This document shows positions 5,671 through 29,485 of a DNA stretch of 64,000 nucleotides, piece after piece. The position numbers were made by a program, and so were the translations under genes. The DNA is from Photorhabdus asymbiotica (lineage in GTDB: Bacteria > Pseudomonadota > Gammaproteobacteria > Enterobacterales > Enterobacteriaceae), in NCBI RefSeq assembly GCF_003634575.1, contig NZ_RBLJ01000003.1, positions 372,001-436,000 of the forward strand, read 5' to 3'. The notes under the pieces are model-generated. The model was not told the DNA's origin, did no database searches, and worked only from the letters and a program-made list of their open reading frames with translations. Within the stretch, counting starts at the first letter, position 1; the number at the start of each line of letters is the position of its first letter.

Positions 5671-5745
5671 ATTATTTTCAACCAGTAACTGTTAGGGTGT
5701 ACTTAATATTTTGATATACAGGATGATATCTTCCCCAGTGACTGC

Positions 5746-5897
5746 TCACCGCCCTGTGCAGAGGTTTACGGCGGATTTTGCTAAAAACTCAGTAGAAGAT
5801 TTCTGTCCAATAAACGCCATTGTACAACCTGACAGTACCATTCCTCCACAGATAAGCGCAGCCAGTGCAACCGACGTTTCAGCTTCAAGGCATTCAT
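5746..5897 (-). pseudogene. Possible decayed small lipoprotein gene
   Basis: On the minus strand, one frame from 5897 reads ATG-start residues MNALKLKRR and another frame continues VALAALICGGMVLSGCT to a stop at 5746-5748. Joined, these look like a lipoprotein signal peptide with lipobox LSGC, but a frame change lies between them. This could be a frameshifted remnant of a ~50-residue lipoprotein. A chance hydrophobic frame cannot be excluded. Confidence 0.3.
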
Positions 5898-5899
5898 TC

Positions 5900-6026
5900 T
5901 ATACCTGTTATCTTTCAAGTTGCCTCTTTGTTGGCTGCACTCACTCACCCCAGTCACATAGTTATCTATGCTCCCGGGGATTCGCTCCCTTGCCGTCGCG
6001 ATGTATCTTGAAATCTATTGGGTATA
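5900..6026 (-). repeat. ERIC element 2
   Basis: A 127-bp ERIC element in reverse orientation, bounded by TATACC and GGGTATA. It carries the core GTCACATAGTTATCTATGC and CCCGGGGATTCGCTCC. It lies at the left edge of the accessory island. Confidence 0.92.
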
Positions 6027-7101
6027 TAGTTAGATAAAATAAGGGTTGGATAAAAAAGTGACACATATCACATAAATTTGTAATTAATAATTTATAAATA
6101 TACTTAATTTGTGATTCACATTAAATTTATTACACCATATTAATAAAACTCGTGTAAATAATTTAAATTATGTTTATATATACAAAGTTAAAAATAATAG
6201 ATTACTTGAAGTGAATGACCAACACGCAAATATACTAGCAATAAGTCAAATATTTATTAACCTGTTATCAAAGATAATCAATAACTCTGATATCATGTGA
6301 AGGCACTATCTTATTTCAAGATGCGCATATATTTGAGTTAAAAAGTGCGTATCCGTTAGTTCTATTCCCTTACTTTGAAGGAAAACAAGCTCAATTTTAT
6401 TAACATTCATGATTTAAAACAATCAAAGTAACTTATTAAATCATTTTTTCATGAAATTACTATTTATAAATTATGCTATCAGTCCCCTTAAAGAAATAAA
6501 ATTGAACAACAGTGACAATCGTAATATGAAGCTATGACACGGAATTATTGTTACCAATCCATACGATATTACCCAATAGATTTCGAGTTGCAGCGCGGCG
6601 GCAAGTGAACGAATCCCCAGGAGCATAGATAACTATGTGACTGGGGTGAGTGAAAGCAGCCAACAAAGCAGCAACTTGAAAGATGAAGGGTATAAGTCAT
6701 TAAACATGGTAATAAGTATCAATATAAAAAGCCTAAAAATGAACAATCAGCTTTTTTAGTTTCTGACGACGCCAAATGTTGCCCCAATTTTACTAGCAAA
6801 ATCGACGACAGTTTCTTTTGTCATCAAAGCCAATAGACTGATTCAGTTATTTTTCGCAATTTGTAGTTTAACCAATACATTGAAGAAAGCATTGATATCC
6901 CAAATGGTTGTTTCAGGATTTGAGAACTTGACTCAAGGGCGGTAGCATTCTTATTTTCTTCTGCTGAAAAATTTTTTCACCGCTTTTCATGACGGAATGA
7001 CTCAAGCGAAACCCATCAACCATTTTTAGTTTTCATACAAGACGGCATTCATTAATGAATGAGTGCTTTTCAATACCGGACTGTTAAAAACCAATTTTCT
7101 T
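6027..7101. other. AT-rich island edge without an intact gene
   Basis: About 1.1 kb, strongly AT-rich, containing one ERIC element (6568-6694). At 6740-7020 the minus strand has short open stretches in shifting frames (for example residues DINAFFNVLVKLQIAKNN ending in a stop, then VVDFASKIGATFGVVRN ending in a stop). This may be the relic of a degraded gene or transposase; I cannot identify it. The promoter of the radical SAM gene is presumably in the right part. Confidence 0.4.
6568..6694 (+). repeat. ERIC element 3
   Basis: A 127-bp ERIC element in forward orientation with the core GAATCCCCAGGAGCATAG and GTGACTGGGGTGAG, ending GAAGGGTATA. It stands ~400 bases upstream of the radical SAM gene. 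Confidence 0.92.
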
Positions 7102-8421
7102 ATGAAAATATTGATCATAATTCCTCCTTATATACCAAGCTATTTTAATGCTGGTCACCATCTACCTATTTTCCAAGTTTCCGCTTTTATACGGAGAAAC
7201 TTACCGAATGTCGATGTTCAATGTCTAGATGCAGCGGCATTAAATGTACACTGGAAGAATATATGCGAGCTACTAATTAATAACGAGTTCGATATTATTA
7301 TAGCGATGAATGATTTTGATGGCATAGACACATTCCAAAGATTTGTACATTACTGCAAAAAATTATCCCCCAAAAGCAAGTTGGTAACATTTGGCCGTTT
7401 GAGTAAACAAAATCCATTTATTTTTAGACAATTTGGATTTGATGCAATTCATTATTCTGGCGACTATGAAGCCGCAATATTAGACTACATTCTGGGATTA
7501 AGAAACGGGATTACCGCATCGGGTTTTCTTGTCCAGGAACTGGGTATTTACCATAAAACGGGTGACGGGCGAATGCTTGATCCTACACAGTGGGTTTTTC
7601 CTAATGTCGAAGAAATTCCTTATATTCATTATGATAAAATGTATATTGATGATTTTAATAAATTTTGCGGCATTCCCCAACGCCGTGAGTTAGTCGTACC
7701 TGTAGCCAGAGGATGTAGCGTTGGTTGTCAATATTGTGATGTACCCGCAATGCAAGGCAATAAGGACCGACGCGTAACGGTAGATTGCACTTTAAATTAT
7801 ATTCAGGATACCTTTTCCAGACAGCCCTTTGACTATGTGACTTTTTATGCTCCTACTTTTACATTGAATAAACAATGGGTTATTGAACTTTGCCAACAGA
7901 TAGAAGAAAGGGAAATGTCAATACCGTGGAAATGTGTCACCACCTTATCCTTCCTCAATGAACGATTGATAAAAGCTATGGCCCGTGCTCATTGCATCAG
8001 AATAAGTTTAGGCGTAGAAACCATTGAAAGTAACGTCGCCAAAAATAATTTACCAAAAATAAAAATCGATGCGTACAATAAACTCGGAAAAATTTCAAGA
8101 ATTTGTCAGGAAAACAATATTGAACTTAATTGTTTCATCATGATGGGAATGCCTGGTGATTCAATTGAGGGTTTAAAAAATACAATTAAATATATACATG
8201 ATAATAATGCCCGTTATCGACCAACTATTTACACCTCTTATGCGGAAATTACAGATGACATGCAACTTTTTGATGTATCCCTATTTAATCGACAACTGTT
8301 CGCAAACCGTAACTATAATGATATTGATGAAATTGAATATTATCGCCTTTTTCATGGTTTCGAATACCGGAAAGACTCTGCAATAAATAACAAAATATCA
8401 ATAAATAAGGCAGCGAAGTAA
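7102..8421 (+). CDS. Radical SAM enzyme with B12-binding-like N-terminal domain (NikJ/PolH-like candidate)
   Basis: A 439-residue protein. Residues ~1-135 form a Rossmann-like B12-binding fold (MKILIIIPPY start) without the DXHXXG cobalamin motif. The radical SAM core follows with the cluster motif C205-SVG-C209-QY-C212 (CX3CX2C). Radical SAM enzymes cleave SAM reductively to start radical chemistry. In nikkomycin and polyoxin pathways NikJ/PolH cyclises 3'-enolpyruvyl-UMP to octosyl acid phosphate and is encoded with an enolpyruvyl transferase; the adjacent MurA-like gene suggests the same step here (inference). The ATG at 7102 is preferred over an in-frame start 39 bases upstream because it begins the typical domain; no strong ribosome site is visible. 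It is the first gene of the rightward block. Confidence 0.8.
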   Translation: MKILIIIPPYIPSYFNAGHHLPIFQVSAFIRRNLPNVDVQCLDAAALNVHWKNICELLINNEFDIIIAMNDFDGIDTFQRFVHYCKKLSPKSKLVTFGRLSKQNPFIFRQFGFDAIHYSGDYEAAILDYILGLRNGITASGFLVQELGIYHKTGDGRMLDPTQWVFPNVEEIPYIHYDKMYIDDFNKFCGIPQRRELVVPVARGCSVGCQYCDVPAMQGNKDRRVTVDCTLNYIQDTFSRQPFDYVTFYAPTFTLNKQWVIELCQQIEEREMSIPWKCVTTLSFLNERLIKAMARAHCIRISLGVETIESNVAKNNLPKIKIDAYNKLGKISRICQENNIELNCFIMMGMPGDSIEGLKNTIKYIHDNNARYRPTIYTSYAEITDDMQLFDVSLFNRQLFANRNYNDIDEIEYYRLFHGFEYRKDSAINNKISINKAAK

Positions 8422-8523: not shown

Positions 8524-8605
8524 CCTACCCAATAGATTTCAAGATGCCGCGTGGTGGCAAGTGAACGCAGCCAAAAAAACAGCAACTTGAAGGATGAAGA
8601 GTATA
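8524..8605 (+). repeat. ERIC element 4, internally deleted (82 bp)
   Basis: Both ends of the ERIC consensus are present (ACCCAATAGATTTC at the left, GCAACTTGAAGGATGAAGAGTATA at the right). The central part with the CCCCAGG...CTGGGG core is missing. It ends eight bases before the start codon of the MurA-like gene and so forms most of that gene's leader. Confidence 0.85.
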
Positions 8606-8613
8606 CTTCACTT

Positions 8614-9936
8614 ATGAAATCATTAAAGGTAACACCCAGCCGACTGACGGGGGGAAATATCAAAGTTAGTGGCTTTAAACATGCAGTAACTTTAGTTATG
8701 GCTGCTTCTGTTGCTCTAAATAACAAAGTTATTATCCGCAATGTTCCCCATGTTTTAGATACCATTATTATTAGCCAAATTATCAATGAGCTTGGTGGCA
8801 CTTGCATCCATAAAAATGATTACCTAGAAATCATATGTACTCAGTTAAACACACCAATAATTCCCCCTTTCATGGCAGATAAAATCCACGGTTCTATTTA
8901 TTTGATTCCGGTATTACTGGGAAAATTAGGTCAAGTTACTTATCAGTCTTTTGGTGGATGTACAATAGGTCAGGGAGGTTCCAGACCAATTAAACACATG
9001 TTAAGTGTGTTAACACGCTTTGGTGCCAGCTTCTCGACTGCTGGTGAAACGACGACTGGTTATACTAACGGATTTAGTGCTTGTTCAATAGATATCATGG
9101 ACTATTCGGATGTTGCCGATGAATTGACAGGCTCTTTGGTCTCCGGAGCGACTAAAACAGCAATTTTAGCAGCAATGTTTGTCACTAACGGTCAAACCGT
9201 GATTCAAAACCCCTATATGAAACCGGATGTTACCGAATTACTGGATTTCTTATCGACTGCGGGTTATCGGGTATCTGGAACCTCCAAAGAAATAATCATT
9301 GAACATGGTACTGTTGATTCTGCTGAGAATACTACGCGTATTATCGAAATGACGCTTGTATCCGATGTCTCAGAAATCATTACCTACCTTACTTTGTCTG
9401 TTTTGGCTAAAGTTTCCATTCAATTAGAATGCAAAAAAATTGAGAAAGTTCAATCAGGACTTTGTGCTGAAATAACACTGTTCAAGGAGATGGGTATTGA
9501 TGTAAATTTCAATAAAGATAAAGTCTTTATCCTAAAGGTCCAGCAATTATATAAAAGTAAAATTATCGTCAAAAGCCACGGCATTTATAGCGACCATCAA
9601 CCATTTTTTGCACTTTTAATGTGTTATGCTGATGGTCATTCATGCATAGAGGAAAGGGTCTGGGCAGAGCGTTTTGCCTATGTTCCTGAATTAAAAAAAT
9701 TAGGTGCTAATATAGCAAAATGCGCTAACCGCATATCGATATTTCCCAACGTGTTACACGATAATCAAACCGAAGTTTTCGCCACTGACTTAAGAGCCGC
9801 CGCGGTCCTGTTAATTGCTTCATTAATTAGAGGCGGTGAAACAACAATTAAAGGAGCACACCACTTAGAACGTGGTTATAGCAATATGCTAGCTAATTTA
9901 CGAATGCTAAATGCCAACGTGGAAACTATCGAATAA
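8614..9936 (+). CDS. MurA-like enolpyruvyl transferase (NikO/PolA-like candidate)
   Basis: A 440-residue EPT-fold protein aligned along its length with MurA (UDP-GlcNAc enolpyruvyl transferase). Key residues are kept: Lys22 (FKHA for MurA's KNA), catalytic Cys116 in GGCTIGQGGSRP, the Asp in GIYSDHQP, the Asp and Arg in DLRAAAVLL, and the RGY near the end. It is therefore probably active. A housekeeping murA would not normally sit in an accessory cluster, so a dedicated substrate is likely; NikO/PolA transfer enolpyruvate from PEP to UMP 3'-OH, and the radical SAM neighbour fits that pathway (inference). The ATG at 8614 lies just after a shortened ERIC element; in-frame codons upstream fall inside the repeat. 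Confidence 0.85.
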   Translation: MKSLKVTPSRLTGGNIKVSGFKHAVTLVMAASVALNNKVIIRNVPHVLDTIIISQIINELGGTCIHKNDYLEIICTQLNTPIIPPFMADKIHGSIYLIPVLLGKLGQVTYQSFGGCTIGQGGSRPIKHMLSVLTRFGASFSTAGETTTGYTNGFSACSIDIMDYSDVADELTGSLVSGATKTAILAAMFVTNGQTVIQNPYMKPDVTELLDFLSTAGYRVSGTSKEIIIEHGTVDSAENTTRIIEMTLVSDVSEIITYLTLSVLAKVSIQLECKKIEKVQSGLCAEITLFKEMGIDVNFNKDKVFILKVQQLYKSKIIVKSHGIYSDHQPFFALLMCYADGHSCIEERVWAERFAYVPELKKLGANIAKCANRISIFPNVLHDNQTEVFATDLRAAAVLLIASLIRGGETTIKGAHHLERGYSNMLANLRMLNANVETIE

Positions 9937-10009
9937 ATTCAAACCCCCATCAGTCTTCCCTAGATGCTAATTTATAATTAACTAATAACCACAAATTAAA
10001 TTGACTATC

Positions 10010-10648
10010 ATGATGAATTTTTCTAATTTTAAAACGGGTACTCCTTGGCCATGGAGTTTAAGTGATAACATACTAGCAACTCCTGTTATTAATAACCTTA
10101 TAGATAACTTTCCTGAAAAATATTTACAAATGTCAGAAAGAAAAAATGGCTCTGATAAGACTTATTTATGCAAGCAACTGAAAATTTACAGCGAGTTTGA
10201 AACTTCTCCGATATCCATTGAACTCAATAAATGTTGGTTAAACTTTATTGAATATATTAAATCGAATCAATACAGAAAGAATATAGAACGTATCACCAAC
10301 TGCAAACTTGCTAACGGGAAAATTGAGATCATTTTAAACCAATATATTGAGAACTGTTTTATGTCCCCACATACTGACCGGGAACCTAAGTTAGTCACCC
10401 ACCTGATTTATCTCAGTGGTAGTCTTGGTACCGATCTTGGCGGTGAATTTGTGGTCCACGATACTCATGGAAATGTTGTAAATATGATAGAACCCTACCC
10501 TGGAAGGTCTATTGTCTTCAAACGTTCAGACCACTCTCTACATTCCGTTAATGCCATGCGTAAAAATTATAAAAGAAACTCGATCCAAATAGTATTTTGG
10601 TCATCTCAACCTAAAAACTCACTTAAAGGAAGGATAATACATGCCTAA
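10010..10648 (+). CDS. 2-oxoglutarate/Fe(II)-dependent oxygenase (first of three)
   Basis: A 212-residue protein with the facial-triad pattern of the prolyl-4-hydroxylase-like 2OG oxygenases: H121-T-D123 in MSPHTDRE, distal H178 in SLHSV, and a 2OG-binding Arg near 189. The N-terminal PWPW and the VTHLIYLS stretch also occur in the minus-strand oxygenase at 26231-26833, so the two are paralogues. In nikkomycin-type pathways a 2OG dioxygenase carries out the oxidative C-C cleavage that shortens octosyl acid; any of the three here could do this. Start: ATG 10010 or 10013, after the TTG at 10001. Confidence 0.8.
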   Translation: MMNFSNFKTGTPWPWSLSDNILATPVINNLIDNFPEKYLQMSERKNGSDKTYLCKQLKIYSEFETSPISIELNKCWLNFIEYIKSNQYRKNIERITNCKLANGKIEIILNQYIENCFMSPHTDREPKLVTHLIYLSGSLGTDLGGEFVVHDTHGNVVNMIEPYPGRSIVFKRSDHSLHSVNAMRKNYKRNSIQIVFWSSQPKNSLKGRIIHA

Positions 10649-10706: not shown

Positions 10707-12128
10707 TTGTTTGATGTTGGTAGAACCTCTCTGCGGCTCTGGGTTAAAAAAATCGGATATTTTATAATTACCATTATCCATTTTGAGAAAATATTACCGA
10801 AAATAATTGATGGTGAAATTTTGAGAATTATAACGAGTAAAGGCTTAGAGTTGGATTATTATGATGTAATAGAAAAAAGCAAAAATCTATCCTGCTCTAT
10901 TTATAACATTCCTAAAATTTATGCACTCTGTTGCTGGTCAAAAGAAAAAATAGATTATATTTTTTGCTATGAAGCCGCACAGATTTTAGATATTCCTTTT
11001 ATTCCTTTACCTTCATCAATTGAATTCAGTTATGTAAAATCACTAATCCAATCTCTCCCTTTTGCTGTTGCAGTTTATAAAGATAATAACATTATACCAT
11101 TCAATAATACTCACACTCATCTTGTTTCCGATTGGTTACAGCTGGCAAGACTCTGTTTTTTTACTTCAGGTTCTACCGGAGATAAAAAATTGGTATTTCT
11201 GTCTGATAACAACATCAGCACAGCAGTTTCATCTATCCAAGAAAAATTAAAATATTCTCACACGGATCGAGTGATAAATTTCCTGCCGATGGCTTTTGAT
11301 TATGGCTTTTATCAATATCTTCTAGTCAAAAATATTGATGCAACTATTTGTCTTATTGATGAAGGTATGTCAATCTCATCCGTAAGTTTTATCGACAAAT
11401 TTGATGCATCTATTTTACCTATTGTCCCCTCTATGGTTACAGCACTTATTCCGCTTTTTAGAACACGATTTAATGGTGATTCAATCAAGAAAATAACTTC
11501 TACCGGTGAAGCCATTTCAACTGGTCTGATTAATCAGATAATCGATTTATTTCATAAAACCGAATTTTACACAATGTACGGACTAACTGAATGTAAAAGA
11601 GTCAGCATTTTACTGCCCGATGATAAACCTGATTTTCCAGGGTCAGTTGGACAGGCAATTTCCTGCGCAAGAATAGCTATTGATAATCCTGATTCTCAAG
11701 GCAGAGGAGAAATTATTGTTTCAGGATCAAACGTTGCACTAGGAACACTTTCTTTTATGCCTTCTGGCGAAATTATTCGTAAAAACTTCCATGGAACATT
11801 AAATACCGGAGATTTAGGCTTCACTGACAGTAAGGGATTCTTATATGTTGAAGGAAGAAAAGATTCACAAATTAAAATCTTGGGTCAAAGAACCAGTGCC
11901 GTAGAAATAGAAAATGCGGCATTGTCCATCCCTGGTATAATAACCTGTAAAGCCTCCGCCGACGCTTCTGGATGTTATTTGCAATGCATCTCTGATAACA
12001 CGATTACAATACAATATATTCGTCAATCTCTGATTAAACAGCTAGGTACAATTGCAACTAAAATAGCTATAACTATCTCAACCCACTTAGATATGACTGC
12101 TAATTATAAATCCAAGAGGCCGGAATAA
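10707..12128 (+). CDS. AMP-forming acyl/aminoacyl ligase (adenylation enzyme)
   Basis: A 473-residue member of the ANL superfamily. Core motifs: TSGSTG (153-158), YGLTE (291-295), TGDL (367-370), GRKD (383-386), and a C-terminal Lys in YKSKRPE expected to be the catalytic lysine. It probably activates a carboxylic or amino acid as the adenylate and loads it on the carrier protein encoded at 17.6 kb. The start is uncertain: the open frame begins with TTG at 10707 and the first ~35 residues are hydrophobic and unlike the family. It is followed two bases later by the decarboxylase, indicating one operon. Confidence 0.78.
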   Translation: MFDVGRTSLRLWVKKIGYFIITIIHFEKILPKIIDGEILRIITSKGLELDYYDVIEKSKNLSCSIYNIPKIYALCCWSKEKIDYIFCYEAAQILDIPFIPLPSSIEFSYVKSLIQSLPFAVAVYKDNNIIPFNNTHTHLVSDWLQLARLCFFTSGSTGDKKLVFLSDNNISTAVSSIQEKLKYSHTDRVINFLPMAFDYGFYQYLLVKNIDATICLIDEGMSISSVSFIDKFDASILPIVPSMVTALIPLFRTRFNGDSIKKITSTGEAISTGLINQIIDLFHKTEFYTMYGLTECKRVSILLPDDKPDFPGSVGQAISCARIAIDNPDSQGRGEIIVSGSNVALGTLSFMPSGEIIRKNFHGTLNTGDLGFTDSKGFLYVEGRKDSQIKILGQRTSAVEIENAALSIPGIITCKASADASGCYLQCISDNTITIQYIRQSLIKQLGTIATKIAITISTHLDMTANYKSKRPE

Positions 12129-12130: not shown

Positions 12131-13219
12131 ATGAAACATTCTACTACCCGATTTATTTATCGTCTTAGCGAAATTAAAGAACGATACAACGAACTAAAAT
12201 CATCAATTCCTGCCCACAGAATTTACTACTCTATTAAAGCCAATCCTAATATTGAAATTTTAACGTTTATATCACAGCTGGGCTTAAAGGCTGAAGTGTC
12301 ATCACCAGGAGAGCTAATTATTGCAATAAACGCAGGTTTTAACCCCGCTTACATTGTTTATGGCGGGCCAGGAAAAACCATTAAAGATATCGACTTTGCA
12401 GCAGAAAAAGGCGTGAATTATTTCAGTTTGGAGTCACTCTCTGAGCTTGATAAACTTGATATCGTTGAAAAACAAATCGGAAAAAATTTTAAACGGATTC
12501 TACGCTTATTCATTCCTAACAATAATGGCCGCTTAAATATGATGATGCCAAATTCTAAATTTGGTATCACTCTTGAAGAAGTGAAAAATTACGTCGCAAA
12601 TGGTGATAACGATGTGTATGGCATTCATCTTTATAGTGGCACACAAATAAACGAAACTGGATTCAGAGCTTCTGTTATTCAAACCAATCAAATTGTATCT
12701 GAAATCGAATCCATAATTGGATATAAATTAAAGTATGTTAACTATGGCGGTGGCCTAGAATGGCCATTTATGCGCTCTGGAAAACCCATTATTTCCCCTA
12801 CTAAAGTAGAAGGTATTTTGCCTGATATCGAATCATGCTTTGAGTTCGGAAGATATCTTGTTGCATCATGTGGTATTTTAGAAACAGAAATTTTAGATGT
12901 TAAAGAAAGAAATGGTTATCAAATATTGATCATAAGTGCCGGTATAAATATTTTAAATGGGATTTCAGCTAGTGGCCGATTAATCCATCAACAGCCGGAT
13001 TTTCATGTTTCCAATAATAAAAATAACAATATCATGCTACCTACAGCTATATATGGTCCTCTATGTACACCAGTCGATTATTTAACCCTAAATACGTTAT
13101 TACCGCAATTATTCCAAGGAGATATACTAACGATTCCTAATTGTGGCGCTTATGCTGCTAATACAGGGATTTCAAATTTCCTCATGCGAGAACCAGCCCA
13201 GGAGATTACTGTTGAATAA
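12131..13219 (+). CDS. Fold-III PLP-dependent decarboxylase (DapDC/ODC type)
   Basis: A 362-residue alanine-racemase-fold decarboxylase. The PLP lysine is in YSIKANPN (Lys36), the glycine-rich phosphate loop is NYGGGLEWPF, and YGPLCTPVDYL is the cysteine-containing active-site segment typical of diaminopimelate and ornithine/arginine decarboxylases. The substrate is not evident. It lies between a ligase and an acyl-CoA-dehydrogenase-like gene with a carrier protein nearby, so it may act on a carrier-bound amino acid, as BtrK does on glutamyl-BtrI in butirosin biosynthesis (inference). Start ATG 12131. Confidence 0.8.
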   Translation: MKHSTTRFIYRLSEIKERYNELKSSIPAHRIYYSIKANPNIEILTFISQLGLKAEVSSPGELIIAINAGFNPAYIVYGGPGKTIKDIDFAAEKGVNYFSLESLSELDKLDIVEKQIGKNFKRILRLFIPNNNGRLNMMMPNSKFGITLEEVKNYVANGDNDVYGIHLYSGTQINETGFRASVIQTNQIVSEIESIIGYKLKYVNYGGGLEWPFMRSGKPIISPTKVEGILPDIESCFEFGRYLVASCGILETEILDVKERNGYQILIISAGINILNGISASGRLIHQQPDFHVSNNKNNNIMLPTAIYGPLCTPVDYLTLNTLLPQLFQGDILTIPNCGAYAANTGISNFLMREPAQEITVE

Positions 13220-21943: not shown

Positions 21944-22732
21944 ATGATCATATTATTGTTAGGTGCTCCAGCCACAGGAAAAAGTACTCTTGGGCCTTTA
22001 TTAAATGCAATTATCCGGTTAAATGAGAGAGTCTGGAAACTGGATTTTCTCAGGCTAAATACTTTACTTGACCAATTAATTGAATCATTTGCCGGACAAT
22101 ATTCACAATCCGACGATAAAACAGCATTAGAACATCTTATTCGTATAGGTAATATCTCGGTTCCAGACTTCCACTGTCTAAATAATCTCAGAGAAAGTGA
22201 TTTTAAATGTGCAGAAATTGATAATTGCAAAGACTACCGTGATGGTCAAGGAAATCTGAAAACAGATTTAACGTTTAAAGCCCATGCTTTTATTCAGCAG
22301 CAAGTAATTTACGATATCAGCCGAATCCTTATTCCTGGTACCGGAATGTGGCTTAACAGACTATTGCCTTTATTAGAAGAAAAACCAAACACACTATTTA
22401 AGGTCGTTGTCCCTGACCCACAATTACAAGGTTATTTTTTTAATGAATTGGCATTGGCAATAAAAAGAAGGTCTTCTAAACAAGCTCAAAAACAGCAAAA
22501 ATTTGTTACTCAAGAAGTTATGAAAGACATTTATAACCGACAACGACAGTTTCTTAGCACCAATGGCCCCTGGAGTAAAATAAAAGGATGTCAAAGCGGC
22601 AAAGCACTCTCAAATAAAATAAAGCATGTCCTTAGCGATATCGGCGATCCAGTGCGGTTAAACCAAGAAACCCAAAAAATCCGCGATGAACTCAAACAAC
22701 TTCTCCAATACAGCGACACACGGGAGGAATAG
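21944..22732 (+). CDS. P-loop kinase-like protein
   Basis: A 262-residue protein starting directly with MIILLLGAPATGKST, a Walker A loop at residues 7-15, as in small nucleoside or adenylate-type kinases. KVVVPDP near the middle and a basic region (KRRSSKQAQKQQK) suggest a lid for binding phosphorylated ligands. The specific substrate is unknown; phosphorylation of a nucleoside intermediate or of the product for self-resistance are both possible. The stop at 22730-22732 is followed three bases later by the next start. Confidence 0.65.
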   Translation: MIILLLGAPATGKSTLGPLLNAIIRLNERVWKLDFLRLNTLLDQLIESFAGQYSQSDDKTALEHLIRIGNISVPDFHCLNNLRESDFKCAEIDNCKDYRDGQGNLKTDLTFKAHAFIQQQVIYDISRILIPGTGMWLNRLLPLLEEKPNTLFKVVVPDPQLQGYFFNELALAIKRRSSKQAQKQQKFVTQEVMKDIYNRQRQFLSTNGPWSKIKGCQSGKALSNKIKHVLSDIGDPVRLNQETQKIRDELKQLLQYSDTREE

Positions 22733-22734: not shown

Positions 22735-23724
22735 TTGTTAGTTGTTCAAAACCATAGCGAGGTAAATGCCGTTGAATGGAATGCGTTTATGGTTCATCAT
22801 TCCAGTACGCCCTATCCTCAAACGACTATTCACGCGGAATACGTCCAACAGTGCTATAGCGCATCACCGTTATACATCACAATACAATCTGAACGTGCAG
22901 AATTAAGATGTCTGATCTTTATCAATAAAAAAAGCGGTACAGTCACTTGGTACTGTGGCCCCGTCATCAAAGGAACCAGTGTAGTAATAAACATATTAAT
23001 TGACAGATTCTTGCGCTGGATAACGCAATTTGGATTTCCAATCAGAAACGCCAGCTGCATCGAAATGGCTGGCCTGCAAGCGATATTAACCAGCAATGAA
23101 ATACTGAATTATGCCGCTCAATATAATATTACGTCTACCCTAGCCACTCTCATTAAAATAAGACTGGATTGCGATATCTGGGAACAAGCTATTTACCACA
23201 CGGGAGGAAAGAAACGGAAAATTAAAAACATGGTATTAAAAAGCGTTAGAGACGGAGTAGTGGTAAGTTCATCGTCGGAATTTCTCCCCCTAGAAGAATC
23301 AGTCTTATATATGGAAAAATATAAAACCCTAATGGAACGAGGATTTCAGCGCAATGCCATTACACAACAGGATGCTTCAGGTGCATGCAAAATATTACGG
23401 TCTCAGGACAAGAGAGGAGACAGTAAAACTTTTTTTGCTTTTAAAGGGAAAGATGTTTTAGCATGCCTTAATTTCGCAATTATTGGGTCAGAAGCATATT
23501 TGCGTAAGCTGGTTTACGACGACAAAAGCTATCTATCCAATAGCGGAGTAACCTATCATGTAATGATGACCGCCGCTGAATGGGCTCAGTCTCAGAAACT
23601 GAAAACACTTAATCTCACCTCGGTGCGATTATCTAAAGACGACAAAACAAGGCATATGAGACAGTACAAAACACGCTTTGGTGGAACTATTTTCCCTATA
23701 TATGAATTTTCCTCTGAAAAATGA
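22735..23724 (+). CDS. FemX/GNAT-like aminoacyl or acyl transferase
   Basis: A 329-residue protein with the tandem-GNAT look of FemAB/FemX or related acyltransferases: a C-terminal half with MERGFQRNAITQQ, FFAFKGKDVLACLNFAIIG and a MMTAAEWAQSQKLKTLNLTS helix-strand unit. FemX-type enzymes in uridyl peptide pathways (PacB in pacidamycin) transfer an aminoacyl group from tRNA to the intermediate, so an amide-forming role is possible. The start is TTG at 22735, supported by GGGAGG seven bases before it. Its stop overlaps the next ATG (ATGA). Family assignment is moderate. Confidence 0.55.
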   Translation: MLVVQNHSEVNAVEWNAFMVHHSSTPYPQTTIHAEYVQQCYSASPLYITIQSERAELRCLIFINKKSGTVTWYCGPVIKGTSVVINILIDRFLRWITQFGFPIRNASCIEMAGLQAILTSNEILNYAAQYNITSTLATLIKIRLDCDIWEQAIYHTGGKKRKIKNMVLKSVRDGVVVSSSSEFLPLEESVLYMEKYKTLMERGFQRNAITQQDASGACKILRSQDKRGDSKTFFAFKGKDVLACLNFAIIGSEAYLRKLVYDDKSYLSNSGVTYHVMMTAAEWAQSQKLKTLNLTSVRLSKDDKTRHMRQYKTRFGGTIFPIYEFSSEK

Positions 23725-24311
23725 TTAACATTAGAAAACTCAGTTTTGCTGGCATTAACTATTATCGAATGGCTTTAGGTTACGGAGACATTTCCTTTTG
23801 TCCAGAATTGCTGGATGTGCTGGTTGATTTTCGTAATCCTCAGGAAGCCATTCGTAATACAACTATAGCGAAATGTTGTATTAATTTACCAATGACGGAT
23901 GCAGGCAGTAAATACCGTAATATCCGTATACCCTGTATCAATGATCTGCTGGAATTTTATATAGAGATTGTAGAGCGTTATCAGCCTGAATTTCGTCAGT
24001 TAAATACCATAGTAAGCAGCAATAAATTAGTGGGTTTCGGTTGTTATTTTGGTAAAGACCGAACTGGAATCGCTTCATATTTTCTTAGTAAAATGTATGG
24101 TCTTCCTTGGGAAGGGATTATCTATGATTATGAACAATCTGGCATAGAATTGATAAGAAAAATTGATTATTTTTCATCTCATTGGGAAAAAAGAAATATA
24201 ACCAAACAAGATTATATGAACAGATTAAAAACGGATGGAAAAGCTATTTTGCAATTAGACGACTACATTATAAAAAAATATGGTTCTGTTGCTAATTACT
24301 TAATATCATAG
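23721..24311 (+). CDS. CX5R tyrosine-phosphatase-fold phosphatase (NikL/PolJ-like candidate)
   Basis: A 196-residue protein with the signature C108-YFGKD-R114-T in VGFGCYFGKDRTGIASYFL, the phosphate-binding loop of the protein tyrosine/dual-specificity phosphatase fold. The catalytic Cys and Arg are both present, and an Asp at the end of PMTD (about 57-60) may be the general acid. In nikkomycin and polyoxin pathways NikL/PolJ of this fold removes a phosphate late in nucleoside assembly. It is translationally coupled to the FemX-like gene and ends the rightward block; an ERIC element follows 18 bases later. Confidence 0.72.
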   Translation: MINIRKLSFAGINYYRMALGYGDISFCPELLDVLVDFRNPQEAIRNTTIAKCCINLPMTDAGSKYRNIRIPCINDLLEFYIEIVERYQPEFRQLNTIVSSNKLVGFGCYFGKDRTGIASYFLSKMYGLPWEGIIYDYEQSGIELIRKIDYFSSHWEKRNITKQDYMNRLKTDGKAILQLDDYIIKKYGSVANYLIS

Positions 24312-24328
24312 TTTAATTTTCTCAGCTA

Positions 24329-24435
24329 TATACCCTGCATCCTTCAAGTTGCTGCTTTGTTGGCTGCTTTCACTCACCCCAGTCACATTGAACTGGGGAT
24401 TCGCTCTCTTGTCGCCGCGCAATCTATTGAGTATA
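24329..24435 (-). repeat. ERIC element 5, shortened (107 bp)
   Basis: A reverse-oriented ERIC with the ends TATACCC and GAGTATA and the core CTCACCCCAGTCACAT. About 20 bases are missing in the centre. It sits between the convergent phosphatase and P-loop kinase genes. Confidence 0.88.
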
Positions 24436-24489: not shown

Positions 24490-24981
24490 TTAATATCTGT
24501 GAATTTTAACACAATCACTCGATTTATTTATCGCCTCATTAAACTGATGGTAAAATTTATAATAGAAAACTATTTTCTTAAAGAAAAACTTTATATTGAA
24601 CTCCCTATACCAGCCAGAATAACTCGTATTTCGCTCTTTTTTGCAAGCTCGCATCACAATACGTCTAAAGTAGCGATAAACGGCTTTATACCAAGTACAA
24701 TTCAATATTATGATATCACTACAATAATGCATACGAAACGCCAAAGTCTGTAAATAGTTTCCCGCAATAATCCACTCCTCCAACTCCAAAACCTGTTTTA
24801 AATTTTCTTTAAATGTTGCATCATCTGGACGCCGCCATCCTTTTTCCCAATAAATATCATCCAAGTCAAAAAGATTTATCCCTGTCGTTTCAGATAACTG
24901 TTTACCAAGAGAAGTTTTACCGCTACACGGACGGCCTACTATTAGAATTTTCCTTCCCTTAAAATCGTTTAATCGAATCAA
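24490..24981 (-). CDS. Adenylate-kinase-like P-loop protein
   Basis: A 163-residue protein with Walker A GRPCSGKT (16-23), LFDLDDIYWEKGW and WIIAGNYLQTL, the pattern of the small AAA/adenylate-kinase-like 'topology modulation' proteins that bind ATP and probably phosphorylate small molecules. Its start overlaps the 3' end of the aminotransferase gene by 23 bases, so the two are one transcript. It could provide the cryptic phosphorylation expected in nikkomycin-type pathways; this is inference. Confidence 0.7.
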   Translation of the reverse strand: MIRLNDFKGRKILIVGRPCSGKTSLGKQLSETTGINLFDLDDIYWEKGWRRPDDATFKENLKQVLELEEWIIAGNYLQTLAFRMHYCSDIIILNCTWYKAVYRYFRRIVMRACKKERNTSYSGWYREFNIKFFFKKIVFYYKFYHQFNEAINKSSDCVKIHRY

Positions 24982-26014
24982 TCAATTTTCCTCTTGCGTC
25001 TTCCTTACACACTGTCACTCTATAATGATTTTCAAACCCCGGAATGTGGTTCAAATTCGCAACATAAACCCCTTGAGAAAGTAACTCTTTCCACAACTCC
25101 CCAGAAGAAGCGGTTTTTAGCAATTTAAATAATACAAAGTTACTCACGCTCTGCGTATAAGTTTCAATACACTCCAGCATGACCATTTTATTTATCAGTT
25201 GCATTCTATTGTATTGAATACTATTGCGATATTGTAATAAAAAATCAGGTTTTTTAATTAATTGATTCGCAATATAGAGACTGATACCCGACAATGTTGA
25301 TTCAGGAAACAAACAACCTATATCTTCTATATTTTTTGCATTACCCGCAATCCAACCAACTCTTAATCCTGGTAATCCATAGGATTTAGAGAAGCTGTTC
25401 AGTACGAGTAAATTATCATAGGTTTTAGTGAGCATAATATCTGAATCACGGCCAAAACCCGAATAGACTTCATCCAAAATAACAGTGATGCCACGGTCTT
25501 TGCAGTTCTGGAGAAATACGGTGATCTGATCGCGTTCAAAACAATCACCAACAAAAGGGTCTGGGTTAGTCAAAACCAATAAATTACACTGATTCCTTAA
25601 CGCCTGTTCATATAAAGATGATAAATCAAACGGGCTATCTGGTGTTCTCGAACACTGTACATAAGGTATTTCATTAATATTAAGATAAAGAGAATAGCCA
25701 TCATAATTTGGTGTCGTTAATAAAACTTTATTTTTTATCTTATCAAGGCTACTAAAGAGTACTCTAATAGCATCATGGCAACCGCTGGTCAATACAATAT
25801 TTTCAACACCAAGATGTGATTTAAGACGATGATATATATCATCGTAAACTGGATACTTAAGAAGCTCAATAGGATCGACATTATTTAGTAATGTCCGAAA
25901 AAACAAGGGATCATCTGTTACCAGATTTTCATTACTCTTCAGATTTAAATATCGCCTTTTGTTCTCTTTTGTTCGGCGAATTATCTGTATTCTTGAATTG
26001 ATGCTATGTAACAT
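24959..26014 (-). CDS. HisC-like class I/II aminotransferase (NikK/PolI-like candidate)
   Basis: A 351-residue fold-type I PLP enzyme with histidinol-phosphate aminotransferase features: LTSGCHDAIRVLF (PLP phosphate region), LTNPDPFVGD with Asn150, ILDEVYSGFG with Asp181 and Tyr184, and the Schiff-base Lys210 in NSFSKSYGLPGLRVGW. Length is usual. Nikkomycin/polyoxin pathways use such an enzyme (NikK/PolI) to install the amine of the aminohexuronic acid, which suits this cluster. It is the first gene of a short minus-strand operon with the P-loop kinase. Confidence 0.85.
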   Translation of the reverse strand: MLHSINSRIQIIRRTKENKRRYLNLKSNENLVTDDPLFFRTLLNNVDPIELLKYPVYDDIYHRLKSHLGVENIVLTSGCHDAIRVLFSSLDKIKNKVLLTTPNYDGYSLYLNINEIPYVQCSRTPDSPFDLSSLYEQALRNQCNLLVLTNPDPFVGDCFERDQITVFLQNCKDRGITVILDEVYSGFGRDSDIMLTKTYDNLLVLNSFSKSYGLPGLRVGWIAGNAKNIEDIGCLFPESTLSGISLYIANQLIKKPDFLLQYRNSIQYNRMQLINKMVMLECIETYTQSVSNFVLFKLLKTASSGELWKELLSQGVYVANLNHIPGFENHYRVTVCKEDARGKLIDSIKRF

Positions 26015-26093: not shown

Positions 26094-26216
26094 TATACTC
26101 GTTATCTTTCAAGTTGCCTCTTTGTTAGCTGCATTCACCCCATTCACAGAGTTATCTATGCTCCCAGGGATTCGCTCCCTTGCTGTCGCGAAGCATCTTG
26201 AAATCCATAGGGTATA
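26094..26216 (-). repeat. ERIC element 6 (123 bp)
   Basis: A reverse-oriented ERIC bounded by TATACTC and GGGTATA with the core GTTATCTATGCTCCCAGGG. It lies between the aminotransferase and the third oxygenase. Confidence 0.9.
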
Positions 26217-26230
26217 CACACAGGTTATTT

Positions 26231-26833
26231 TCATGATTTTAAAAAAATAATTTGCATACAATATCTATCCACACCTTCAACCTTAACAGGAGAGACGCTA
26301 TGCCATGATTTATCGTCAGTTTTTATCACCACTGAGTTTTGATAGTGTGGTTCAATATGGGCTATAACTGAAGCCTCATCAGACGTTGTTAGAATATTCA
26401 AACAGCCACCATAGGATTTTAGCCATTCCTCACTAAAATAAATAAGATGAGTAACATATTTTTCGGCTTTATCTAAATGCGGTGATAAATAGTTTTGATT
26501 TGAATATTTCCAGATATTGATGACGCACTCTTTATCCAATAATGCTGCTGTTGTGAACTCACTTAACGCTTTTATATATTGAATAGAGCGTACATCTTTC
26601 AGTAATTCATTTAATCTCTCTCCCCGCACATTCTGTCTATTAGTTTCAAACAACGACATACTATAGCTTTTGTCACTTCTCTCTGCCGCAATAGGACGAA
26701 AATCCAACCATTCTATTTCAGATGCAATTTGAATCGCATCCTGTCTTGTTATTAAATTATTAATAACGCCCCATTCCCAAGGATAATTATTAAATTTAGC
26801 AGATTGAAAGGCTGATAACTTTAAGATTTTCAT
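26231..26833 (-). CDS. 2-oxoglutarate/Fe(II)-dependent oxygenase (third of three)
   Basis: A 200-residue oxygenase with triad H119-L-D121 in YLSPHLDKAE, distal H178 in SWHSV and R190. The N-terminal PWEW and VTHLIYF segments make it a paralogue of the oxygenase at 10.0 kb. It ends 14 bases after an ERIC element and is transcribed leftward. One of the three oxygenases may perform the ring-opening oxidation of the octosyl acid core, and the others may tailor the product. Confidence 0.8.
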   Translation of the reverse strand: MKILKLSAFQSAKFNNYPWEWGVINNLITRQDAIQIASEIEWLDFRPIAAERSDKSYSMSLFETNRQNVRGERLNELLKDVRSIQYIKALSEFTTAALLDKECVINIWKYSNQNYLSPHLDKAEKYVTHLIYFSEEWLKSYGGCLNILTTSDEASVIAHIEPHYQNSVVIKTDDKSWHSVSPVKVEGVDRYCMQIIFLKS

Positions 26834-27267
26834 ACTAGCATTTTTATTCAGTTATTTTTGGTTAATAGTATTTAAAATCATTATTTTTTGCAATACATAT
26901 CGTATATTTCCCCTCCCACCTGATGTCAACTTACCGGGCTGATTCAATACCAGCTACATTGTAAAGGGCTTTAATAAAAAACGCCTAAAAATAACATTGT
27001 GATTTAATAAAATCCTTAAAGAATATATAGTTGCACACCCTTGGCAAATATTATAGCATAAGAATATTAGATAATTTATACCCTTCAAGTTGCTGCTTTG
27101 TTGGCTGCTTTTACTTACCTCAGTCACAGAGTTATCAATGCTGCTGGGGATTCGTTCACTTGCCGCCGCGCTGCAACTCGAAATCTATTGGGTATATTCA
27201 TTTTAGAAATAGAAAAAGTAAATTTTAAGAACAAAATCAATCAATACATACTGACGGATGTAAAAAT
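26834..27267. other. Divergent spacer with one ERIC element
   Basis: A 434-bp AT-rich gap between the divergent oxygenase and nucleotidyltransferase-like genes. Apart from the ERIC at 27077-27196 no gene or strong hairpin is seen. It should hold both promoters. Confidence 0.5.
27077..27196 (-). repeat. ERIC element 7 (120 bp)
   Basis: A reverse-oriented ERIC bounded by TATACCC and GGGTATA with the core CAGTCACAGAGTTATCAATG. The left arm is a few bases short. Confidence 0.9.
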
Positions 27268-28299
27268 ATGCACGATATTCTTGATAAAAAAAACATAACC
27301 TCAGCCAATTATATCATCAGTGATTATTTAGGTATAAAAAAAAATGAGGACTTAGATTTAGATAATGTTATCTCTGCCGATCTGCATTTTCTGGGAAAAC
27401 ATAAACTCATTCCAATATGGTTTGACCTGATAAAAAAATATGGTGAAGTAAAGAAACTCACACGGCAAACTTACTATATGCTGTCATCATATCTCACGTA
27501 TATGAGAAATCAGCAAGAAACAAAATTGCAGGAAATACAGAACATTGGTAAGCAATTTGATCAAAATAACCTGCCTTATGCCATTAGAAAAGGGCACGCT
27601 TTATCATCTCTGTATAAAGATAAAATACACAGGAATTATAATGATATCGACTTATTAATAAACAATTCACAACTAGAAAAGTACTTAGATATTCTTTATT
27701 CACAAGGCTATATTGAAGGGATTTACGACTATAGCAAACAAGAAATTATTAAATATTCTCGATTCGATCTGATTAAATACCAGTTAAGCCCCGACCATCA
27801 TCCACATCTGATTAAATTAATTGATGATATACCTGTCGCTATCGATCTCGCATACACATCTTGCTGGCACACTCACCCAGAAGCAAAAACATTTCATATA
27901 AATAACTCAGATACAGAAATTATTGATGGCGTCCGCTGTCTGAGCGGTAAATCTCTTTATTACGATACGATGTTTCATCTATACAGAGAAAGTCGATTTC
28001 TTAGTTCATTAGAAGGTAGATCTCCATTTTTATTAAGTTACATAGATCTGATGCTCTTGAAAAACAGTTATCCTGGCCTCATTCAACCTAAATTTAAAGA
28101 AAACGAAGCACTCGAAAAAGATATTTCTGTCATTTTATCAGATGATATTGATAATATCCTAAATTATAAAGTTAAATTAGCTGATATAAAAAACAACACT
28201 TTCTTTAATCTCTTTTTATACACCGCCAAGAGTTCAAAAAAGGAAGCTAAAAAAATGATTGAAGACGTTAGAAAAGAAAATTTGAAAAACAGGAAATAA
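27268..28299 (+). CDS. Nucleotidyltransferase-fold protein (NTP_transf_5-like)
   Basis: A 343-residue protein with an antibiotic-type nucleotidyltransferase core: AIRKGHALSSLY (105-116), then RNYNDIDLLIN with the metal-binding Asp pair D126 and D128. Large C-terminal helical part. Members of this family occur in polysaccharide and secondary-metabolite loci; adenylylation of a small molecule or product inactivation is possible. It is followed seven bases later by the acid phosphatase gene, so the two probably form an operon. Confidence 0.68.
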   Translation: MHDILDKKNITSANYIISDYLGIKKNEDLDLDNVISADLHFLGKHKLIPIWFDLIKKYGEVKKLTRQTYYMLSSYLTYMRNQQETKLQEIQNIGKQFDQNNLPYAIRKGHALSSLYKDKIHRNYNDIDLLINNSQLEKYLDILYSQGYIEGIYDYSKQEIIKYSRFDLIKYQLSPDHHPHLIKLIDDIPVAIDLAYTSCWHTHPEAKTFHINNSDTEIIDGVRCLSGKSLYYDTMFHLYRESRFLSSLEGRSPFLLSYIDLMLLKNSYPGLIQPKFKENEALEKDISVILSDDIDNILNYKVKLADIKNNTFFNLFLYTAKSSKKEAKKMIEDVRKENLKNRK

Positions 28300-28306
28300 A
28301 TTTATT

Positions 28307-29113
28307 ATGAAAACAAAAACGACTTTTTTTGCTATTTCATTTATAGCGATACTATTAGCTGGCTGCGGCTACAATCAGCAAGATAGTGAAACGATTCTCA
28401 CAAAACAAAATACCAGCGCTGTGTTATGGATGCAAAACTCCAGCGAATATCTCGCATTAGTGGCACAAGCTTTTAATATAGCAAAAGACGCTTTTGATCG
28501 TGCAGATAACATACCAGGTAAAAAGAAAGCTGTTGTGGTAGATCTTGATGAAACGATCTTAAACAGCACATCATATAACGCTCAACAAATTAAAAGTGGT
28601 GAATTGTCTAACCAGAGAAACTGGGAAGAATGGGTATCAAAGGAAAAATCCAGCCCTATTCCTGGCGCTGTTGATTTTGTAAATTATATCATCAATAACG
28701 GTGGAGAAATATTTTACGTTTCGAATAGAAAGTCTGACGATTACCAGCATACTATGAATACTCTGATCAAAAATGGGTTCCCACATGTCTCAGAAAAAAC
28801 ATTACTTTTACGGGATAAAACGTCCAACAAACAACACCGTTTCAACACAATCATTGCGTCCGGTTATCACATCGTGGTATTTATGGGAGATAATTTAAAC
28901 GATTTTGGCGATATTTTTTATCGTAAAAAAAACAATAAACGTAAAGAATTAGTCATGATGAATGCTCCGAATTTTGGTTATAAATTTATTATGATGCCAA
29001 ATCCTATTTATGGTTCTTGGGAAAATGTATTAACTGACAATTACCCTAGATTAAACCTCAATGGAAAAATTGAAGCACGTAATAAACTCATTCATGATAA
29101 GAGTTATAAATAA
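28307..29113 (+). CDS. Class C acid phosphatase lipoprotein (e(P4)-like, HAD fold)
   Basis: A 268-residue protein with a lipoprotein signal peptide (lipobox LLAGC, Cys20) and the class C acid phosphatase pattern: DLDETIL (D79, D81), SNRKSDD as the Ser-containing motif II, and MGDNLNDF as motif IV. Homologues such as the Haemophilus P4 protein are outer-membrane 5'-nucleotidases. In this context it could dephosphorylate an exported phosphorylated nucleoside outside the cytoplasm, giving the active compound only after export (inference). Alternatively it is simply a scavenging phosphatase that came with the island. Confidence 0.85.
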   Translation: MKTKTTFFAISFIAILLAGCGYNQQDSETILTKQNTSAVLWMQNSSEYLALVAQAFNIAKDAFDRADNIPGKKKAVVVDLDETILNSTSYNAQQIKSGELSNQRNWEEWVSKEKSSPIPGAVDFVNYIINNGGEIFYVSNRKSDDYQHTMNTLIKNGFPHVSEKTLLLRDKTSNKQHRFNTIIASGYHIVVFMGDNLNDFGDIFYRKKNNKRKELVMMNAPNFGYKFIMMPNPIYGSWENVLTDNYPRLNLNGKIEARNKLIHDKSYK

Positions 29114-29174
29114 AACAGGTCATCATTAAAAACCTATCCCCAAAGCCGGTATTTGTACTTAGACTTGTCAAGGT

Positions 29175-29261
29175 TTAGTCGGGATTGATATCTCTAAAGC
29201 TTCTCTGGATATCACTGCGGGTAGTGAAATAAAACAATTCACTACCCGCAGTGATAAATGA
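29175..29261 (+). pseudogene. Fragment of an IS110-family transposase
   Basis: A short frame reads LVGIDISKASLDI followed by TAGSEIKQFTT and a stop. GIDISK-type residues form the N-terminal catalytic Asp motif of IS110/IS1111 (DEDD) transposases. No start and no downstream domain remain, so it is a relic. It lies at the right edge of the accessory island. Confidence 0.55.
29210..29256. repeat. Perfect 19-bp inverted repeat with a 9-base loop
   Basis: TATCACTGCGGGTAGTGAA and its exact complement flank nine bases (29229-29237). It lies 96 bases after the class C phosphatase stop. No T-run follows on the plus strand. It might stabilise the 3' end of the operon or be a structural relic of the transposon. 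Confidence 0.75.
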
Positions 29262-29358
29262 TATTGGATGGCTTTGACACCATTTTCGGCAGTAAATAAA
29301 TAAGACTCTGATAAAACCCCGTAGCTTGCTAAACTTGGGCAATGACTACGATCACTAT

Positions 29359-29485
29359 TATACCTAATAGATTTCGAGTTGCAGCGCGGTGGCAAGTGAA
29401 CGAATCCCCAGCAACATAGATAACTCTGTGACTGGGGTAAGTAAAAGCAGCCAACAAAGCAGCAGCTTGAAAGATGAAGGGTATA
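29359..29485 (+). repeat. ERIC element 8
   Basis: A full 127-bp forward ERIC (TATACC...GGGTATA) with the core GAATCCCCAGCAACATAG and GTGACTGGGGTAAG. It ends 19 bases before the queF start and forms its leader, marking the right boundary of the island. Confidence 0.92.

Follow-up and report, generated by a model that had tools for sequence, protein, structure and literature searches.

Nikkomycins and polyoxins are chitin synthase inhibitors of Streptomyces that are used or studied as antifungals. In published work, roles are assigned to PolH and PolJ and mined clusters are reported (He et al. 2016, PMC5365060). NikS and PolG are named as the joining enzymes (PMC11641026), PolQ2, MalE, and PumH are described as a kinase family (PMC7955054), and Streptomyces malaysiensis is given as the malayamycin producer (PMC8724604). 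Here, we describe a ~22 kb island (7063-29113), flanked by syd and queF, in a 64,000-nucleotide stretch of Photorhabdus asymbiotica DNA (contig NZ_RBLJ01000003.1, positions 372,001 to 436,000), referred to below as the window. The genome also has two strong LuxC matches (494 and 487 bits), one of which precedes a gene read as luxD, as would fit a luminous Photorhabdus. We consider it likely, judging from its genes, that the island encodes a peptidyl (aminoacyl or acyl) high-carbon-sugar nucleoside of the nikkomycin, polyoxin, and malayamycin class. Its NikO/NikJ core is known, and the combination of this core with other arm-forming genes is new. A first-pass annotation made from the sequence alone had proposed a related high-carbon-sugar nucleoside pathway. 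The grouping of the two core enzymes supports that reading, and Pfam and NCBIfam scans, from which the protein families were taken, found every gene it named as an open frame of the stated family.

Core Enzymes of the Island

The core consists of two genes.

7102-8421, plus strand: NikJ/PolH/MalJ-type radical S-adenosylmethionine (SAM) protein (octosyl acid phosphate synthase type); PF04055, 44% identity to NikJ, tree
8611-9936, plus strand: NikO-type enolpyruvyl transferase (EPT); EPSP_synthase/MurA-like, PDB scores, trees, residues

Against all PDB sequences, the EPT scored 248 bits with NikO (4fqd) and 136 bits with the best MurA. A tree of 27 rows (the window, 22 loci from the genome scan below, NikO from two genomes, and two MurA, one the host's own; the partial L010 was dropped) separated the 25 NikO-type rows from both MurA rows at 100/100 and placed the window EPT as sister to that of Pantoea dispersa at 100/99. 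A second tree including the PDB NikO row, with L010 dropped there too, gave a like grouping. At the position of K-N in the two MurA rows, each of the 25 NikO-type rows carries K-H or R-H, and HGxxY takes the place of the RASIW or RASIL of the MurA rows; the loop after the GG[C/D] motif is also longer in all 25 than in the MurA rows. We take the MurA residues at these places to bind UDP-N-acetylglucosamine. As the first-pass annotation had proposed, the EPT thus grouped with NikO rather than with the host or other MurA, and we assign it on this evidence to the NikO-type 3'-enolpyruvyl transferases. The start of the listed frame, 8551, falls within a repeat fragment (8526-8593), which makes ATG 8611 the probable start. 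In a separate observation, the EPTs of L019, L023, L025, and L026 carry GGD instead of the GGC found elsewhere, the Cys-to-Asp change known from fosfomycin-insensitive MurA.

The MurA-like gene and the HisC-like aminotransferase gene could in principle be ordinary duplicates of host genes, and the generic family names that NCBIfam gives both would fit this. However, the host MurA is 28% identical to the EPT and falls outside the NikO-type clade, and other aminotransferase matches in the same genome reach at most 46 bits. A housekeeping duplicate of MurA or HisC was rejected on the EPT tree and these own-genome scores, and we give it almost no probability.

References for NikJ were taken from two Streptomyces genomes in which the NikO protein shares 98% and 95% identity with PDB NikO; four of 392 genomes searched had matched NikO at E 1e-45 or better. 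In the first nikkomycin cluster (L045), matches ran in the order oxygenase, radical SAM, aminotransferase, phosphatase, oxygenase, transporter, and EPT, which presumably fits nikI-J-K-L-M-N-O. The second (L043/L044) gave the same matches except for the phosphatase. Over 413 residues, the radical SAM protein of the window shares 44% identity with NikJ (E 8e-125), and 28 cluster proteins, including NikJ from both clusters, split from five outside radical SAM proteins at 100/100 in a tree with very long outgroup branches, of which only this split was used (L029, present in an earlier tree, was dropped). The second grouping foreseen by the first-pass annotation was thereby also found, and the protein is best placed, by its sequence relationships, among the NikJ/PolH-type radical SAM cyclases. 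A B12-radical SAM family was rejected: Pfam gave PF04055 only and no B12-binding domain, NCBIfam B12-type models scored far below their cut-offs, and the outside proteins split off at 100/100. The CX3CX2C motif runs from C218, numbered in the listed frame from GTG 7063; this start is probably too early, and homology begins at ATG 7102.

Distribution of Related Clusters

One scan of 84,980 species genomes with a three-row alignment and two peptide patterns gave 25 loci with NikJ-type clusters, a lower bound, or 26 with a Mesorhizobium plasmid. Five of the 25 are from Xenorhabdus and one is from Pantoea; such clusters are not confined to actinomycetes, where the first-pass annotation had placed the pathway. 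The NikO/NikJ core also occurs in Legionella metagenome-assembled genomes, Pseudoalteromonas, Staphylococcus, the Mesorhizobium plasmid, and actinomycetes. Clustering is conserved. At E 1e-3, the 26 loci held matches to the island EPT (23), kinase (24), aminotransferase (23), 2-oxoglutarate (2OG) oxygenase (24), phosphatase (14), and GrpB (8), counts that short contigs lower. Nearer to the window, the radical SAM gene was present in two of 198 sampled genomes of its family, its own included, and in one of 12 genomes of its genus, its own. A NikO/NikJ core beyond Streptomyces provides concrete enzymes to test from sources outside that genus, and one enterobacterial branch pairs the core with other arm-forming genes.

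GrpB-family genes accompany the NikJ-type clusters in eight of the 26 loci, plus the stretch neighbouring L016 (loci L004, L005, L006, L011, L018, L019, L020, L023, and L046), and likely have a role in the pathway, judging from this co-occurrence. The 7180-base contig of Staphylococcus gallinarum DSM 20610 (L008) has phosphatase, NikJ-type, aminotransferase, NikO-type, and kinase matches. Five Xenorhabdus species (L009, L012-L015) share a closely similar cluster, 80-100% identical to that of X. griffiniae, with TruD, an apparent amidinotransferase (by eye), and a major facilitator superfamily transporter. Its product is possibly a C-nucleoside.

Pantoea Cluster and Base Linkage

The closest cluster is that of Pantoea dispersa DSM 30073 (L005), with 11 genes in common at 27-66% identity, each of them an open frame in Pantoea. 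The radical SAM protein is 66% and the EPT 54% identical; the other nine follow with OG2, which has no Pantoea ortholog.

10001-10648, plus strand: 2OG-Fe(II) oxygenase 1 (OG1); PF13640, Pantoea counterpart 53%, tree
19100-20233, plus strand: HprK-like P-loop kinase; TIGR04355 28.7 bits (cut-off 200), Pantoea 29%
20306-20836, plus strand: GrpB-family protein; PF04229, matched in 8 of 26 loci, Pantoea 48%
21294-21911, plus strand: 2OG-Fe(II) oxygenase 2 (OG2); groups with L006 and L007 oxygenases
21944-22732, plus strand: P-loop protein (GAPATGKST); sequence, Pantoea 27%
22735-23724, plus strand: FemX-like tandem-GNAT protein, candidate aminoacyl-tRNA-dependent ligase; Pantoea 42%, Foldseek with a low-confidence model
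23721-24311, plus strand: NikL/MalL-type phosphatase, CX5R; PF13350, E 7e-7 at the NikL place of L045, motif, Pantoea 47%
24490-24981, minus strand: PolQ2/MalE-type 2'-kinase candidate (FlaR-like P-loop); L018 homolog, match in 24 of 26 loci, Pantoea 44%
24959-26014, minus strand: NikK-like (HisC superfamily) aminotransferase; PF00155, Pantoea 46%, NikK places E 4e-23 and 2e-27
26231-26833, minus strand: 2OG-Fe(II) oxygenase 3 (OG3); PF13661, Pantoea counterpart 44%

Because 11 proteins have counterparts in this one cluster, the grouping of the island genes is not a matter of chance. The shared set includes the FemX-like, HprK-like, and P-loop genes and two counterpart 2OG oxygenases. L005 has TruD, another ABC exporter, an alkaline phosphatase, and an NTP_transf_2 protein that the island lacks, whereas OG2, a SnoaL-like gene, and a carrier cassette are found only in the island. 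In our partial coverage of the literature, we found no publication on the L005 cluster.

The main difference concerns TruD, which in L005 (8910-9950) immediately precedes the radical SAM gene. A search of the window with E up to 1 gave no TruD match, nor a remnant ahead of the radical SAM gene, and the single TruD frame of the genome lies outside it. The class relationship stated in the first-pass annotation holds for the NikO/NikJ core, with the qualification that the sister Pantoea cluster, like malayamycin, has a TruD step and the island does not. Since TruD is present in Pantoea and absent from the window, the two sister clusters would differ in base linkage: the island product is probably an N-nucleoside and the Pantoea product probably a C-nucleoside.

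Alternatively, the island could make a C-nucleoside like malayamycin from pseudouridine phosphate supplied by RNA turnover or the housekeeping TruD, the dedicated TruD having been lost as dispensable. The TruD of the sister cluster favors this, as does TruD within 15 of the 26 fetched stretches (for L016 it lies further out on the same contig), and a review has MalO acting almost exclusively on 5'-pseudouridine phosphate (PMC8724604). However, TruD-less clusters exist, with none found in nine of 13 genomes of such loci, five of these nine being actinomycetes. Together with the lack of a TruD match in the window and the location of the one genomic frame elsewhere, this leaves the C-nucleoside unlikely in our view, and the N-nucleoside is the preferred reading.

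With nikkomycin and polyoxin (nikI-O; polA, H, J), the island shares the NikO-type and NikJ-type enzymes, NikI/NikM-family oxygenases, and NikK-like and NikL-like proteins, and the fetched nikkomycin stretches likewise gave no TruD match. The divergence is deep, and in place of an ATP-grasp ligase of the NikS/PolG kind, absent from its 22 scanned proteins, the island has the FemX-like protein and a carrier/condensation-domain cassette. Cluster L018 of S. malaysiensis subsp. samsunensis, which we take as the malayamycin (mal) cluster from its species and gene content, shares counterparts of MalO, MalJ, MalK, MalL, and the oxygenases, a MalE-type kinase, and a nearby GrpB. Unlike L018, the island is without TruD; no carbamoyltransferase was found in the window by Pfam and tblastn, and Pfam scans of 22 island proteins, four of them with no match at all, gave no methyltransferase.

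Nucleosides described from these bacteria are of other kinds. They include Photorhabdus 4'-thiothymidine, which involves a different radical SAM gene (PMC12691670), products of puromycin-like clusters in Xenorhabdus (PMC11641026), and a GTP-mimic prodrug from Photorhabdus (PMC9239236). Passages of the 4'-thiothymidine paper (PMC12691670) contain neither nikkomycin nor polyoxin nor enolpyruvyl, and nucleoside, nikkomycin, polyoxin, and malayamycin do not occur in the main texts of Shi 2022 (PMC9177418) and Meesil 2023 (PMC10676414). Within a partial coverage of the open-licence literature, we found no described product of the class from Photorhabdus, Xenorhabdus, or Pantoea.

Tailoring Enzymes

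OG1, OG2, and OG3 each keep HxD, the distal H, and R. In the oxygenase tree, from which L009, L010, L012, L014, L015, and all matches shorter than 100 residues or with E above 1e-6 were dropped, OG1 and OG3 each pair with a Pantoea enzyme at 100/100 and OG2 groups with the oxygenases of clusters L006 and L007 at 97/84; NikI and NikM sit in other branches. By these placements, all three are assigned to the NikI/NikM family, among the enzymes of such clusters. The aminotransferase tree (L012, L014, L015, and L029 dropped) had no good outgroup, since at least two of its four own-genome rows (L059 and L060) carried a wrong frame, and resolved the exact place weakly; own-genome bit scores were used instead. 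The phosphatase carries its CX5R motif as C108YFGKDR. For the phosphatase, oxygenases, and aminotransferase, the roles given in the first-pass annotation stand at the family level only.

The FlaR-like kinase of L018 lies directly after a carbamoyltransferase, a position that makes it a candidate for MalE. It shares the NCBIfam model PRK08118 with the window kinase (88 and 92 bits, respectively; cut-off 215).

Candidate Side-Arm Genes

Among the 22 scanned island proteins, no ATP-grasp family of the NikS/PolG kind was found. Two other systems could supply an arm. The first is the FemX-like protein (329 residues), which was matched in one of the 26 loci (Pantoea). It had no match in 368 other genomes of the class, neither Pfam nor PDB gave a credible match by sequence, and plasmid searches with it and the P-loop protein gave no matches; the Pantoea copy reached LPG_synthase_C at 13 bits only. 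Foldseek with its low-confidence model placed Weissella FemX in all top six ranks (E from 2.7e-9, probability 1.00), followed by another FemX, MprF, L-PGS, and the streptothricin enzymes Sbb17 and Sba18, whose database entries name them as aminoacyl-tRNA-dependent peptide synthases. This likeness to FemX, MprF, and Sbb17 makes the protein a candidate aminoacyl-tRNA-dependent ligase of tandem-GNAT build. PacB of pacidamycin is described as a tRNA-dependent aminoacyltransferase (PMC11641026).

The second system is a cassette of ligase, decarboxylase, dehydrogenase-like protein, condensation (C) domain, and carrier. It is listed with the exporter and transposase that lie among its genes or beside them.

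10707-12128, plus strand: AMP-forming ligase; PF00501, homolog followed by decarboxylase homolog in L047, L048, and L049
12131-13219, plus strand: fold-III pyridoxal phosphate decarboxylase, LysA/BtrK-like; PDB matches
~13209-14285 (listed frame from 13143), plus strand: divergent acyl-CoA dehydrogenase-family protein; tblastn, L047/L048 matches
14355-16196, plus strand: MsbA-like ABC exporter; PF00005/PF00664
16233-17471, plus strand: stand-alone C-domain protein; PF00668
17629-17823, plus strand: carrier protein, 3' end cut by an insertion sequence (IS); PF00550, profile positions 4-54 of 67, DSGIDSM
17820-18887, minus strand: IS630-family transposase in a ~1.1 kb insertion (ends by eye); PF13358, sequence

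BtrK was among the best PDB matches of the decarboxylase (118 bits), below diaminopimelate decarboxylase (137 bits). The dehydrogenase-like protein had no Pfam match; the best 12 of 31 plasmid records in tblastn were 23-27% identical over ~90%, and the seven of these 12 that are annotated are all of the acyl-CoA dehydrogenase family. Two Streptomyces plasmid loci, L047 and L048, carry ligase, decarboxylase, carrier, and dehydrogenase in a row, with matches in a 12-locus search of E 1e-32 and 5e-37 for the ligase, 7e-58 and 6e-51 for the decarboxylase, and 3e-18 and 2e-19 for the dehydrogenase. L049 has the ligase, decarboxylase, and carrier. In such BtrK-type cassettes (butirosin; L047, L048), the ligase, decarboxylase, and dehydrogenase stand in the same order as in the island, at 23-33% identity, and the carrier is part of the run; the L047/L048 carrier lies between decarboxylase and dehydrogenase, whereas the island carrier is 3.3 kb further down. 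Butirosin biosynthesis uses a different ligase.

The cassette could belong to a separate pathway, with a nucleoside and a small carrier-based amine or acyl compound made side by side as two molecules. In line with this, its decarboxylase, dehydrogenase, C domain, and carrier had no match in the 26 loci at E 1e-3, the AMP ligase matched weakly in four, and the plasmid runs of ligase, decarboxylase, carrier, and dehydrogenase occur without NikJ-type genes. On the other hand, the cassette sits on the same strand, flanked by OG1 and the HprK-like gene, two neighbours in Pantoea, and a lone C domain needs an acceptor. We therefore regard two separate molecules as improbable. An acyl or aminoacyl arm on the island product is likely, with the putative chemistry set out below.

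Proposed Pathway

We infer the substrates, step order, and product, as well as the kinase and FemX-like roles, from the enzyme families. The NikO-type enzyme would transfer enolpyruvate to a pyrimidine nucleoside 5'-phosphate, probably uridine 5'-monophosphate, at its 3'-OH, and the NikJ-type radical SAM enzyme would close this to octosyl acid 5'-phosphate. A transient 2'-phosphate would be added by the MalE/PolQ2-type kinase. OG1, OG3, and perhaps OG2 would then oxidize the new ring, the aminotransferase would install an amine, and the CX5R phosphatase would remove the phosphate. The amine may be acylated by the FemX-like protein with an aminoacyl-tRNA donor, by the carrier/C-domain cassette, or by both; in the cassette, an amino acid would be adenylated, loaded, decarboxylated, and desaturated. 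The product would leave the cell through the ABC exporter, and two further genes may provide self-protection.

27268-28299, plus strand: NTP_transf_5 nucleotidyltransferase, possible self-protection; PF14907 65 bits
28307-29113, plus strand: class B acid phosphatase, lipobox LAGC, possible extracytoplasmic final dephosphorylation; PF03767 171 bits, N-terminus

In their place, Pantoea carries NTP_transf_2 and alkaline phosphatase genes, the phosphatase having a signal-like N-terminus. Different families may thus fill the same two roles, which suggests modification inside the cytoplasm and dephosphorylation outside it. Our more specific proposal is tentative and rather doubtful: in a peptidyl N-nucleoside antibiotic of the nikkomycin class from an insect-killing nematode symbiont, two non-classical arm systems, the FemX-like ligase using aminoacyl-tRNA and the carrier/C-domain route supplying a decarboxylated and desaturated amino acid, would replace the ATP-grasp ligase, with fungal or insect chitin synthase as the likely target. 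A chitin synthase inhibitor would suit the ecology of a nematode symbiont in insect cadavers.

Several findings weigh against the proposed nikkomycin-class pathway. The island phosphatase shares only 26% of its residues with the NikL-place protein of L045 (E 7e-7) and is unmatched in the second nikkomycin cluster; for the aminotransferase and the NikK-place proteins, identity is only 22-23% (E 4e-23 and 2e-27). For the cryptic 2'-kinase of the first-pass annotation, the island candidate matches the kinase of the malayamycin-type cluster but gave no match in the stretches fetched from either nikkomycin cluster. The presence of a kinase gene is no proof of a 2'-phosphate step, given that the related pseudouridimycin oxidase SapB is described as using its nucleoside without a phosphate (PMC10127198). 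The FemX-like model is weak (pLDDT 49, pTM 0.44, template modeling score ~0.33, from a two-sequence alignment), and plain GNAT acetyltransferases covering about half of it appear from rank 13. The nearest relative carries TruD, so the island may have lost a needed step. An IS630-family insertion cuts the carrier gene at its 3' end; the gene keeps its attachment motif DSGIDSM and its frame now appears to end in IS sequence. The nearest genus mate, G199, retains only GrpB (93%), a SnoaL-like gene (89%), OG2, and two truncated genes before queF. With the carrier gene cut by the IS and the island largely gone from this sister species, the pathway may be silent, inactive, or dying in this strain.

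State of the Island

The syd gene of G199 is 94% identical to that of the window as DNA. Of the retained pieces, OG2 is 89% identical with one in-frame stop, the P-loop protein is limited to its first 139 residues, and the phosphatase lacks 49 N-terminal residues. Synonymous divergence of these pieces (0.15-0.28) resembles that of syd, queF, and ppnN (0.18-0.29); the island was therefore probably present in the common ancestor and cut down in G199.

A decaying relic, whose core may remain able to form an octosyl or amino-nucleoside but not a complete product, is compatible with the nikkomycin-class assignment and is plausible, if short of probable. It would account for the IS630 element in the carrier gene and the decayed remnant in G199, where a repeat copy stands at the deletion point, between a conserved leader and GrpB (by eye). 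However, no stop or insertion was found in the other island frames of the window, and the ratio of nonsynonymous to synonymous substitutions between retained copies is 0.12-0.41.

In seven of 11 other genus genomes (L077-L083), syd and queF are separated by 133-513 bases with no island gene, and in three (G207, G206, and G198) queF is outside the fetched stretch. The syd site may be an insertion hotspot. As a side observation, G207 (L076) has no queF within 19 kb of syd and has frames of 1165, 1101, and 561 residues there, the last weakly BamA-like (29 bits).

Boundaries and Accessory Genes

The first-pass annotation had set the island at 5700-29480. The island itself stands, with narrower limits of ~7.06 to 29.1 kb. 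Its flanking genes, whose names we take to be syd and queF, and one more island gene are as follows.

5119-5670, minus strand: syd, left flank, open frame
20862-21263, plus strand: SnoaL/NTF2-like protein; PF12680 21.5 bits, below the Pfam cut-off of 27
29493-30353, plus strand: queF, right flank, open frame

Beyond the genes first named, the island holds the AMP ligase, decarboxylase, acyl-CoA dehydrogenase, ABC exporter, C domain, and carrier, as well as the IS630 transposase, GrpB, SnoaL-like, FemX-like, nucleotidyltransferase, and class B acid phosphatase lipoprotein genes. The G+C content of the island is mostly 32-39%, rising to 42-43% at the IS. Since that of the flanks overlaps this range (36-42% on the left; mostly 41-47% on the right, dipping to 30-33% at 38-41 kb), composition is a weak sign of foreign DNA.

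A dispersed repeat of ~125-134 bases is present in ~10 copies in the window (3257-3373, 5900-6026, 6570-6694, 24339-24420, 26094-26216, 27063-27196, 29359-29485, 40035-40161, and 41976-42230), several of them at island edges. The GcvB small RNA lies at 43314-43512 of the window (Rfam, 151.6 bits).

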